Positions 1 to 5,914 of a stretch of DNA of 64,000 nt are shown here, one piece after another. The notes beneath the pieces are model-generated. The model worked only from the letters and a program-made list of their open reading frames with translations. It had not been told where the DNA came from and did not search any database. The stretch is taken from NCBI RefSeq assembly GCF_019646055.1, contig NZ_JAESFE010000001.1, forward strand, positions 124,001 to 188,000. The letters run 5' to 3'. Origin of the DNA: Sodalis sp. CWE (GTDB lineage: Bacteria; Pseudomonadota; Gammaproteobacteria; Enterobacterales; Enterobacteriaceae). The first letter of the stretch is position 1, and every line of letters begins with the position of its first letter. Made by a program: the position numbers and the translations under genes.

Positions 1-167
1 TCACCTTCTACGTCGAATATCCAGCTGATATCAGCTCCAGCACGTCGCTCGATTTCTTGATCAGAATCAAAAAATTCCATATTAAGCTGTTGTGCTAACT
101 GGCGACCTATAGTGCTTTTCCCTGCACCCATAGGTCCAATTAAAAAGATGTTACGTTTCTCTGCCAT
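1..167 (-). CDS. aroK: Shikimate kinase I, 5' end only (runs off the left edge)
   Basis: Shikimate kinase phosphorylates shikimate at the 3-OH with ATP in the chorismate (aromatic amino acid) pathway in the cytosol. Only the first 55 codons are in the window; the rest lies beyond base 1. The visible N-terminus begins [19 protein letters not shown], almost the E. coli AroK start, with the P-loop GPMGAGKST at about residues 11-19 and the shikimate-binding DSDQEIE segment near residue 33. The ATG is at 165-167. In E. coli aroK heads aroKB-damX-dam and is not beside deaD, so its position here is a rearranged junction. Identification is firm; nothing can be said of the C-terminus. Confidence 0.93.
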
Positions 168-184
168 ATTATTAGTTAGATTAT

Positions 185-913
185 TTATTGTGTCGAAAAC
201 TCACTTAATCTAAGATCCACATTTTTTATCTGATTTTGTACTTTAGTGGTAAACTTGGCTAAGCGACGTGCATTTAACATTTCGTTGGTTGGTAATTTAA
301 TCTCCTGAATTTTTGATTTCATGATTCGCTCAATATTGTACAACAAACGACGTTCATGATGTTCCACAAACAATAAAGCACGTCCAGGTCGTCCAGCTCG
401 TCCTGTACGACCAATACGATGAACGTAAGATTCTGAATCTATCGGAATGTCATAGTTTATAACTAAACTAACACGATGCACATCTAACCCGCGCGATGCG
501 ACATCGGTAGCAATAAGAACATCTAAACGACCGTCTTTCAGACGACCTAGTGTCTGCTCACGAAGTGCTTGGTTCATATCACCGTTTAAGGCAGCACTAT
601 TATAACCGTTACGTTCGAGCACTTCGGATACCTTTAGAGTTGCTTCTTTTGTTCTTATAAAAATAATGGCTGCATCAAAATCCTCTATTTCTAAAAATCG
701 CATTAACGCTTCATTTTTGTTAATTCCATGTACTATCCAATATCCCTGACTTATATCAGGACGCGTATTAGCGTTAGATGGAATGCTAATTTCACGCGGT
801 TGATTCATAAATCGACGACTAATACGCCGAATTGGCTCCGGTATTGTGGCAGAAAATAACGCAGTTTGACGCTTTGCAGGTATTCTTGTCAAGATATCCT
901 CGACGTCTTCGAT
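185..913 (-). pseudogene. Truncated duplicate of the deaD helicase core
   Basis: This stretch repeats codons ~168-401 of the neighbouring deaD in the same frame and orientation, then diverges and stops eight codons later (ending RLSEFSTQ). It has helicase motifs III (SAT), IV, V ([10 protein letters not shown]) and VI ([11 protein letters not shown]), but lacks the Q motif, the Walker A P-loop, the DEAD box and the C-terminal RNA-binding domain. There is no ATG with a ribosome site at its 5' end; the only possible start is a TTG that is an internal Leu codon in the full gene. The reading frame is entirely open and appears identical to the parent, so the duplication is young or kept identical by gene conversion. 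It is most likely a non-functional fragment. A free RecA2-domain peptide is possible but unsupported. Confidence 0.85.
212..913. repeat. Direct repeat copy 1 (702 bp, deaD core)
   Basis: Read side by side, this segment matches 1589-2290 with a constant offset of 1377 bases and no difference that I could find. The encoded peptides are also identical. Identity begins at aagatccac and ends at cgtcttcgat; the flanks on both sides are unrelated. It lies between the aroK start and the deaD stop codon. Confidence 0.93.
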
Positions 914-967
914 TTGAAGTTAAATGTTAATGATAGAAAATATCAGTTTTAGTTTTAATTATACTGA

Positions 968-2791
968 TTAACAACTAATCGCTCTACGTGTCCGTGCAGA
1001 AGCATAGCGATGTTTTTGCTTGTTTTGATTCAAATAATGTTGTTGACTTTTTTTTAAATCGCTCAATTGATCTTGATCGTAGTGTTTTTCATCACAAAAA
1101 TTAGAATGACTGTGTCGTTTTCCATTAAATGACTTTGTCCTTCCTATTAATTTTATATTTATAGGTTTATTTAGGATTCGAGTACGAGCGAATCGAGATA
1201 GTATTTTTTCTGACATTTTTTTTGGAAGTTCTATAGTTGAGTATAAAGCAAATAATTTAATATTTCCGATATGATGACTATTGATATTTCCTTCGTTAGT
1301 AATTGTACCTACTATATGACGCACTTCAATACCATGATCGCGACCAAGCTCGATTCGATATAAATCCATGTTATTTATTCCACTGTTCTTAATGTTATGC
1401 CATTCTTCACATTTTGTTTGAACTAAACGATATGAACGAGCTTTTTTTAAATTTTTAATTATACGATCTGGAGGTAAAAGCAAAGGACGCTCTCCTTGTG
1501 CCATTTTTAGTAGCGCTGTGGCTAGCGTTTCCATATCAATTTCTTCAAATGAATTTTTCAGTTTGTTTAACAAGGATCGATATGGAGCAAGATCCACATT
1601 TTTTATCTGATTTTGTACTTTAGTGGTAAACTTGGCTAAGCGACGTGCATTTAACATTTCGTTGGTTGGTAATTTAATCTCCTGAATTTTTGATTTCATG
1701 ATTCGCTCAATATTGTACAACAAACGACGTTCATGATGTTCCACAAACAATAAAGCACGTCCAGGTCGTCCAGCTCGTCCTGTACGACCAATACGATGAA
1801 CGTAAGATTCTGAATCTATCGGAATGTCATAGTTTATAACTAAACTAACACGATGCACATCTAACCCGCGCGATGCGACATCGGTAGCAATAAGAACATC
1901 TAAACGACCGTCTTTCAGACGACCTAGTGTCTGCTCACGAAGTGCTTGGTTCATATCACCGTTTAAGGCAGCACTATTATAACCGTTACGTTCGAGCACT
2001 TCGGATACCTTTAGAGTTGCTTCTTTTGTTCTTATAAAAATAATGGCTGCATCAAAATCCTCTATTTCTAAAAATCGCATTAACGCTTCATTTTTGTTAA
2101 TTCCATGTACTATCCAATATCCCTGACTTATATCAGGACGCGTATTAGCGTTAGATGGAATGCTAATTTCACGCGGTTGATTCATAAATCGACGACTAAT
2201 ACGCCGAATTGGCTCCGGTATTGTGGCAGAAAATAACGCAGTTTGACGCTTTGCAGGTATTCTTGTCAAGATATCCTCGACGTCTTCGATAAATCCCATT
2301 TGCAACATTTCATCAGCTTCGTCCAATACTAATCTATTCAAATTAGATAGATTTAATGTTTTATTCTTCAGATGAGCTAACAAACGACCTGGCGTACCTA
2401 CTACGATTTGTGGTCCATAGTGTAATGCTCTTAATTGAGTACCATAATTTTGACCTCCATATAGAGTAGCTATATTAATGTTCTTTATATATTTAGAAAA
2501 GTTGGAAAAAGAATTTCCAACTTGGATTGCTAACTCGCGGGTTGGGGTCAATACTAATACTTGCGGAGCTTTTAACGAGATGTTAATATTTTGTAATAAC
2601 GGCAAAGAAAAAGCTGCAGTTTTTCCACTTCCGGTTTGTGCCATTCCTAATACATCTTGACCATTTAATAAAAGTGGAATACAAGCAATTTGAATTGGTG
2701 ATGGTTTTTTATAACCAAGATCAGTTAATGCGTTTAGGACAGGGCCTGTAATTCCTAGATCAGTAAAAGAAGAAAAATTTAATTCATACAT
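968..2791 (-). CDS. deaD: ATP-dependent DEAD-box RNA helicase (CsdA/DeaD)
   Basis: DeaD unwinds RNA duplexes and assists large-subunit ribosome assembly and mRNA decay, especially in the cold. The 607-residue product is close to the E. coli length (629). Visible in order are a Q motif (PSPIQ, ~30-34), Walker A AQTGSGKT (51-58), PTRELA (83-88), TPGR (133-136), DEAD (157-160), SAT (188-190), [10 protein letters not shown] and [11 protein letters not shown] in RecA2, then a DbpA-like RNA-binding domain (around [20 protein letters not shown]) and a basic tail. The ATG at 2791 starts MYELNFSSF. In E. coli nlpI lies between pnp and deaD; here that 289-bp space has no gene. Codons ~168-401 are duplicated downstream. 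Confidence 0.97.
1589..2290. repeat. Direct repeat copy 2 (702 bp, inside deaD)
   Basis: This is the parent copy of the repeat, lying within the intact deaD gene and encoding about residues 168-401 (end of RecA1 domain through RecA2 domain). It is separated from copy 1 by 675 bp that hold the deaD C-terminal coding region and a 54-bp spacer. Confidence 0.93.
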
Positions 2792-3080
2792 CTACAAATA
2801 CCTTACTTTATAACTTAATTATCCTTATTGTAAAAATCTTTGTAAGATTATAAGGAACATTTATCAGTTGAATAAAGATAAATGTTTTAATCAATGTAAT
2901 CTTAATTTTAGAATAACATTTTTTATTATATCTTGCTACTGCCTATAGTAAGTTAGGTTTAAATAATAAAGTGGACGATCATTACATAAATCAGAATTCA
3001 GTAGTTAAATTTAGATGTTTAAAAAAGCAAGAACAAATCAAACTAACTCTATTAAGAATAATAGAAGAATGCTCTCTTTT

Positions 3081-5186
3081 TTATTTTATATGAAAAGACT
3101 TGTCAGTCTGAGCTTCTTTAATGCTTAATCGTATTCGACCACTTCGGTCAATTTCAATAACTTTCACTGGCATCTCTTGACCTAAATGTAAATAATCCGT
3201 TACTTTCTCAATGCGTTTATCAGCAATTTGAGAAATATGTACTAGTCCTTCCTTTTTGCCATCAATGGAACAAAATGCTCCAAAATCTGCTATACGAATA
3301 ACCTTTCCATTATAAATACGACCCACTTCAATTTCAGCTGTGATTTCTTTAATTCGATGAATAGCTTGATAGGCTTTATCTTTGTCGGAAGAAGAAACTT
3401 TAACAGTGCCATCATCTTCAATTTCGATTGTTGTTCCTGTCTTTTCAATTAATGCACGAATTACAGAGCCTCCTTTACCGATCAAATCCTTTATCTTTTC
3501 TGGATTTATTTTTATAGTATGAATTCGTGGAGCGAACTTAGAAATAGTGCTGCGTGGTAATTTAATAGCTTTGTTCATCACATCCAAAATATGAATAAGT
3601 GCGCCTTTAGCCTGACTTAATGTAGTTTGCATAATCTCTTGAGTGATACCTTCATTTTTAATATCCATCTGCAAAGCGCTTATTCCTTCATTAGTACCGG
3701 CAACTTTGAAGTCCATATCTCCAAAATGATCCTCATCGCCTAAAATATCTGTTAATATGATGGAATTGCCCCCTTCTTGCACTAATCCCATAGAAATACC
3801 TGCAACAGCTGCTTTAATAGGAACACCTGCATCCATTAGCGCTAGTGAAGCGCCACAAACAGAGGCCATAGAAGAAGAGCCATTTGATTCAGTAATTTCA
3901 GATACTACACGTATGGTATATGGAAACTCCCTAGCGTTTGGCATTACTGGTGAAATACCACGTTTTACTAAACGTCCATGTCCGATTTCACGCCGCTTCG
4001 GTAAACCCACTATTCCAATTTCGCCAACACAGTACGGAGGGAAATTATAGTGCAATAAAAAACGATCTGTTCGTTCACCTATTAATTCATCAATACTCTG
4101 TGCGTTACGTTCAGTACCAAGTGTAACAGTAACCAATGCCTGAGTTTCACCTCGAGTAAATAATGCAGATCCATGAGTACGTGGAAGTATTCCTGTTCGA
4201 ACATCTAAACTACGCACCATATCCCTTTCTCGTCCATCAATACGTAATTCGCCACGAATTAAGCGACTACGTACTATGTTTTTCTCAAGAGATCCTAAAA
4301 TAGACTTAATTTTGTTTTCGCATAATGAACTATTTTTAGTAATTAAGTATGCGATCACATCGCTTTTAATATCATTAACCATAAAATGGCGTTCTTGTTT
4401 TTCAGTAACACAATAAGCTTTTTCCAAACGAGATTTAGCTAGCTCGACAATTTGTTCTTGCAAGTAAGTATTAATATTTTGCGCTTGCCAATTCCATTTT
4501 GATTTACCAAATTTTGCAACTAATTGATCGATATTATCGATAACAATTTGTTGTTGTTCATGACCATATATTATTGCACCTAGCATTTGTACTTCGTTTA
4601 GTAATTTTGCTTCAGACTCTACCATTAGAACAGAATTTCTAGTACTAGAGACGATTAAGTCGAGATGGCTTTCTGTTAGTTCAATTAAAGTTGGATTCAA
4701 TACATATTGGTTGTTAATATAACCAACGCGTGCAGCACCTATAGGTCCTTTAAATGGAATACCAGACAAGCTTAACGCAGCTGACGTACCAATCATTGCT
4801 ATAATGTCTGGATTGATTTGTGGATTAACAGACACAACGGTAGCAATTATTTGCACTTCATTCAAAAATCCGTCCGGAAATAATGGACGAATTGGACGAT
4901 CAATTAATCGAGAAATTAACATTTCATTTTCGTTTGGACGACCTTCCCGTCGAAAAAAACCTCCTGGAAATCGACCAGCAGCATAGGTTCTTTCTTGGTA
5001 GTTGACAGTTAATGGGAAAAAATTTTGTCCTAATTTTTCTTGTTTGGAGCCAACAACAGTTACAAAAACCGTCGTATCATCCATGCTTGCCATAACTGCA
5101 GCGCTCGCTTGACGGGCCATCATATTTATTTCCAATGTAATAGTATGTTGACCATACTGAAATTTATGAACAATCGGATTTAACAA
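3081..5186 (-). CDS. pnp: Polyribonucleotide nucleotidyltransferase (PNPase)
   Basis: PNPase is a phosphate-dependent 3'-5' exoribonuclease of the RNA degradosome that can also add 3' tails. It shows two RNase PH domains with a helical domain between (catalytic-core segments FFRREGRP and [14 protein letters not shown]), then KH ([16 protein letters not shown]) and S1 ([17 protein letters not shown]) domains. I start it at a TTG (5184-5186, giving [12 protein letters not shown]) because AAGGA lies 7 bases upstream and the E. coli gene also begins at this TTG; an ATG six codons earlier (5204) would overlap that ribosome site. Length is 701 residues against 711 in E. coli, with a shorter acidic tail. 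It follows rpsO, as in E. coli. Confidence 0.96.
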
Positions 5187-5486: not shown

Positions 5487-5753
5487 CTAATGACGCAAAC
5501 TCAGTCGTTCAACAAGAATTTTATATCGTGCTAAATTTTTGCTTTTTAAGTAATTGAGCAGTTTACGTCTCCGTGATACCATACGCAATAAACCTCTTCG
5601 GCTATGGTGGTCTTTTTTATGTTTTATAAAGTGATCCTGAAGGTAATTGATCTGAAAAGTTAAAATAGCAATTTGTACTTCAGTAGAACCACTGTCTTTT
5701 ATGTTACGCCCAAAATCAGAAATAATCTTAGTTTTTTCAATATTTAGAGACAT
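5487..5753 (-). CDS. rpsO: 30S ribosomal protein S15
   Basis: S15 is a primary 16S rRNA-binding protein that helps form the central domain and bridges to the 50S subunit. The 88-residue product (E. coli 89) carries the family signature [22 protein letters not shown]. The start is the ATG at 5753 (MSLNIEK), preceded by a GGGG ribosome site 7 bases upstream; an in-frame TTG four codons earlier has no support. It lies between truB and pnp exactly as in E. coli, a cluster usually cotranscribed with the nusA-infB operon. Confidence 0.97.
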
Positions 5754-5914
5754 TGTAAACCCCAAAGTGACTTCAGAGAAAATAGTTCTGAAAATTCACT
5801 ATTTAACTAGTTCCAACATTTTAATTTATAATCTAGCTATCTATAAGTTCTTTTTATGATTCCACTATACTCTTATATTAATCAAAGAGAAATTACGTAT
5901 CTAAATTTATGAAA

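Follow-up and report, generated by a model that had tools for sequence, protein, structure and literature searches.

The best explanation for a 702-bp perfect direct repeat at the deaD locus of Sodalis sp. CWE is probably an event of an ordinary kind, a recent insertional partial duplication of deaD, whose recency and mechanism we infer. The genome comprises 797,418 bases in two contigs, C1 and C2, and the DNA analyzed here, hereafter the window, is the 64,000-base stretch C2:124001-188000. An earlier note on this DNA had spoken of a decaying, AT-biased genome, a fair description of both composition (32.4% G+C in the window) and size (797 kb). Elsewhere in the window, this reduced genome retains the Ribosomal S15 leader RF00114 at the start of rpsO (5700-5798, minus strand; 44.8 bits, gathering score 39.5). 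The single 16S rRNA match (G000 C1:201764-203315) stops about 92 bases short of the end of C1, so that one contig end adjoins rRNA genes. The features of the repeat locus, in window coordinates, are as follows.

968-2791, minus strand: deaD, the parent, encoding a full-length DEAD-box RNA helicase of 607 aa (open reading frame, Pfam)
1589-2290, minus strand: source copy of the 702-bp repeat within deaD, residues 168-401 (702/702 identity)
914-967: 54-bp spacer from the deaD stop codon to the duplicate, holding most of a weak promoter-like match
212-913, minus strand: the duplicate, 702 bp, confined to the Helicase_C region (identity, Pfam)
185-916, minus strand: open frame with the duplicate, 243 codons: Q, DeaD 168-401, RLSEFSTQ, stop (translation)
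168-211: 44-bp spacer from the duplicate to the aroK start codon
1-167, minus strand: start of an intact aroK (172 aa), which continues into the preceding contig sequence

The repeat had been noticed by eye as mismatch-free at an offset of 1377, with a base-by-base alignment of the copies proposed as a check. Such a comparison of 212-913 with 1589-2290 found 702 of 702 bases identical, with 0 mismatches, and the exact match stops at these limits on both sides, giving the repeat sharp boundaries. Both copies lie on the minus strand in direct orientation and, as the earlier note had it, in the same reading frame, the duplicate covering DeaD residues 168-401; it was also correct that the duplicate stops eight codons past the repeat, where it ends RLSEFSTQ-stop. 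Immediately outside the repeat, identity at the same offset falls to 25% (left) and 10% (right) over 20 bases, and stands at 30% and 20% over 60 bases. Local alignment of the 44-base left flank gave a score that was reached by 237 of 500 shuffles, and that of the 54-base right flank one reached by 486 of 500, so that these flank alignments, scoring no better than shuffles, reveal no decayed shoulders outside the 702 bp.

The pair is the sole direct repeat of at least 24 bases in the 64-kb window and lies far beyond chance. When the repeat was searched as DNA against its own genome (797 kb), exactly two places matched, and the 12 kb that precede the window contained no repeated 40-mer. Repeated 40-mers numbered 663 at the deaD locus of this genome and 0 in 11 of 12 relatives' deaD stretches, with 6 in the remaining one (G030, L137). 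A protein search of the genome returned a third place, C2:382537-382875, which matches weakly (28% identity, E 3.2e-4); we take it as probably another helicase. Short inverted repeats can be seen by eye at both junctions (ATCTAAGAT at the left, CTTC..GAAG at the right) and are too short to weigh.

Assemblies often go wrong at exact repeats that exceed the length of short reads, and because this assembly is in two contigs it must be asked whether the second copy is absent from the chromosome altogether. We consider such an artifact unlikely. An assembly loop walked twice would repeat the whole unit in tandem and create one false junction, whereas here the 675-bp interval that separates the copies (914-1588) is unrepeated and there are two novel junctions, both absent from the parent. 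The repeat also sits 124 kb inside a 594-kb contig, away from the contig ends. The same arrangement led us to reject a simple tandem duplication in the chromosome itself, which would leave one novel junction rather than two and a repeated 914-1588 interval.

An insertional duplication accommodates these features. In a single recent event, 702 bp from within deaD would have been copied and inserted directly into the gap between deaD and aroK. A replication fork or broken end could have jumped to the deaD coding sequence close by, used about 0.7 kb of it as template and then returned, leaving a templated insertion; template switching is probably the source of the duplicate. Rearrangement junctions of E. 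coli carrying inserted lengths of nearby sequence are described in PMC3161906, where template switching is proposed for them. That study reports microhomology at all 40 amplification junctions sequenced from starving E. coli. By inspection, microhomology at the junctions described here amounts to 0-1 base provided that the spacer is still complete, which argues against the standard form of template switching unless the original spacer was trimmed.

Three accounts of the perfect identity had been put forward in the earlier note, namely that the duplicate is very recent, that it is kept by gene conversion, or that it is an assembly artifact. These were the right options, and identity that runs sharply to both ends favors the first; together, the sharp ends, the two novel junctions and the undecayed edges favor recency and disfavor a simple assembly loop. 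An older duplication whose identity was maintained by conversion between the copies would also give identical copies, and recA, recB and ruvB are each present above curated cut-offs while the copies lie only 675 bp apart in direct orientation. Loss of the duplicate by crossover truncates deaD, so the layout could also persist while conversion proceeded. However, conversion would generally be expected to lag at the ends of a repeat, and here identity reaches the last base on both sides with no diverged margin. We regard conversion as a shade less likely even than an artifact, and prefer recent duplication.

How recent can be bounded from the 0 differences in 702 bases, which place divergence at no more than 0.43% (95% upper bound). 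Rates for nonfunctional DNA, as quoted in PMC4643148, are 4.3e-9 per site per year in Buchnera and 1.5e-8 in Blochmannia. If only the duplicate drifts, its age would be less than about 0.99 million years at the Buchnera rate or 0.28 million years at the Blochmannia rate, a bound that uses rates borrowed from other symbionts, which may differ from that of this organism, and that is void under gene conversion. Recency rests on such borrowed rates because the comparison includes no other genome of the genus.

The duplicate is most likely a fresh, nonfunctional pseudogene fragment that lacks the ATP-binding first domain. Pfam assigns four domains to the parent, DEAD, Helicase_C, DeaD_dimer and DbpA. 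In the duplicate it finds Helicase_C alone, complete (profile positions 2-110 of 110), and DEAD, DeaD_dimer and DbpA were all not found; the retained part corresponds to what we take to be helicase motifs III-VI. A DEAD-box helicase has both helicase domains with motifs I and II, and the duplicate, without a DEAD domain, does not qualify as one. With its parent intact and its own essential domains missing by Pfam, it is a partial duplicate. The frame does not open with an ATG, and the earliest candidate start codon (ATG, GTG or TTG) is a TTG at 892, which still precedes most of it. The absence of an ATG start together with the missing ATP-binding first domain is what makes a pseudogene the most likely status of the fragment.

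A selected role would require the duplicate to be expressed as a RecA2-domain polypeptide, for instance a regulator or decoy of DeaD. The frame of 243 codons is open with no internal stop, Helicase_C is complete, and the minus strand carries a weak promoter-like match (9 of 12) just upstream, at 958-930. An open frame is nevertheless expected of any fresh, identical copy, and the only start codon near its beginning is the TTG, in a product missing the DEAD domain. The region 1-3200 in any case has 8 promoter-like matches, below the mean of 13.6 for its shuffles; another of them, in the other spacer, precedes aroK (196-168, gene strand, 10 of 12). Nor is there a second copy in 11 genomes with a single DeaD match (that of G005 is weak). 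We consider an expressed polypeptide very improbable, and nothing found here in the sequence appears to indicate an independent function of the duplicate.

Across the genomes searched, 59 of 60, this one included, contain a DeaD match. The parent gene is full length, and its identity to the 29 top-scoring relatives, out of 58 other genomes with a match, is 60-75%. The 11 with a single match are counted out of 59 other genomes; the other 47 matching genomes each have several DeaD matches, paralogs included, among the matches listed. Each of 31 relatives' deaD neighborhoods holds one deaD piece, in a comparison that left out pieces of less than 50% identity, and none of these relatives is from the same genus. 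A scan for close relatives covered the best 80 loci, with a top identity of 55%, and may omit records very near the window. DeaD open frames are short in two genomes of about 300-400 kb: 476 aa in G033 (C1:56097-57434) and 477 aa in G058 (C1:54504-55829), with DeaD matches that run to residues 452 and 444, respectively. Both have apparently lost the RNA-binding domain, so natural short forms of DeaD do occur. In G028 (completeness 49%; C1:617495-618749), deaD is apparently broken: it is covered by two matches that adjoin but differ in frame, and the second contains a TGA.

No aroK was found within 1.5 kb beyond the deaD match in any of 29 relatives (L004-L032, the best-scoring of 58), nor beside deaD in 12 wider stretches, which add G007 and G021 for 31 relatives in all. 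In 4 of the 12 wider stretches (G013, G030, G018 and G010) deaD is followed by ridA and argF, with valS further along in G013, G018 and G010 and pepA in G030, G018, G010 and G013; the remaining 8 show none of ridA, argF, valS or pepA within the stretch. These neighbors were named by eye from translations rather than by family search. G013 carries its aroK about 28 kb beyond deaD, on the same strand. In the genome studied here, aroK-aroB-rpe-trpS stand between deaD and valS (window 1-2791 plus C2:112001-124000; names by eye). Of 16 genomes searched for aroK, 15 have a best match of 50-76% identity, and the sixteenth (G058) one of 34%. Because aroK was seen beside deaD in none of the 31 relatives, and ridA and argF occupy that place in 4 of 12, the deaD-aroK junction is probably derived, a lineage-specific rearrangement in which the duplicate sits.

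That the copies might recombine, with deletion or amplification of the C-terminal coding region of deaD as the result, as had been suggested in the earlier note, is plausible, since with recA, recB and ruvB present they can recombine; the outcome would be only one of two things, a truncation to 409 aa or an amplification. As computed, the crossover product loses 1,377 bp and leaves a DeaD of 409 aa ending RLSEFSTQ. This predicted protein is without the DbpA-type domain, and its dimerization domain (375-442) is cut. The reciprocal product is an amplification. Judging from the layout, and in contrast to a simple tandem duplication, a crossover would be unable to restore the ancestral arrangement, and clean loss of the duplicate would need another deletion.

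A bolder reading joins these strands. The duplicate would be a templated insertion from the rearrangement that brought aroK to deaD, less than about 1 million years ago, and would act as a one-way trap, such that a 409-aa form without the C-terminal RNA-binding domain segregates alongside full-length DeaD in the symbiont population, a one-step route to the short DeaD forms of smaller genomes. We think this improbable. The short DeaD proteins of G033 and G058 resemble the predicted crossover product in apparently having no DbpA-type RNA-binding domain. In the present genome, however, deaD is full length, and the 409-aa form is only predicted and would cut the dimerization domain as well.

Recent partial duplication has other parallels. 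Like other truncated pseudogenes that lie beside their parents, the duplicate is in direct orientation, truncated at both ends, without an ATG and next to an intact parent, but unlike the usual partial gene duplication it is wholly undiverged and forms the sole direct repeat of at least 24 bases in the window. It likewise resembles the template-switch or MMBIR-type junctions of E. coli described in PMC3161906 in that nearby sequence is inserted and the resulting direct repeat feeds unequal crossing-over; it differs from them in having little or no microhomology and in being known from sequence alone. Among the titles and abstract openings listed by PMC full-text searches, none names a report of this locus. 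If the duplicate is real, it would represent a freshly made pseudogene fragment caught before decay, in a small, symbiont-like genome and at a probably derived junction; otherwise the locus would amount to a partial duplication of an ordinary kind or to a mistake in the assembly. A real duplicate would be usable to date the rearrangement and to measure the repeat-mediated truncation of a housekeeping gene.
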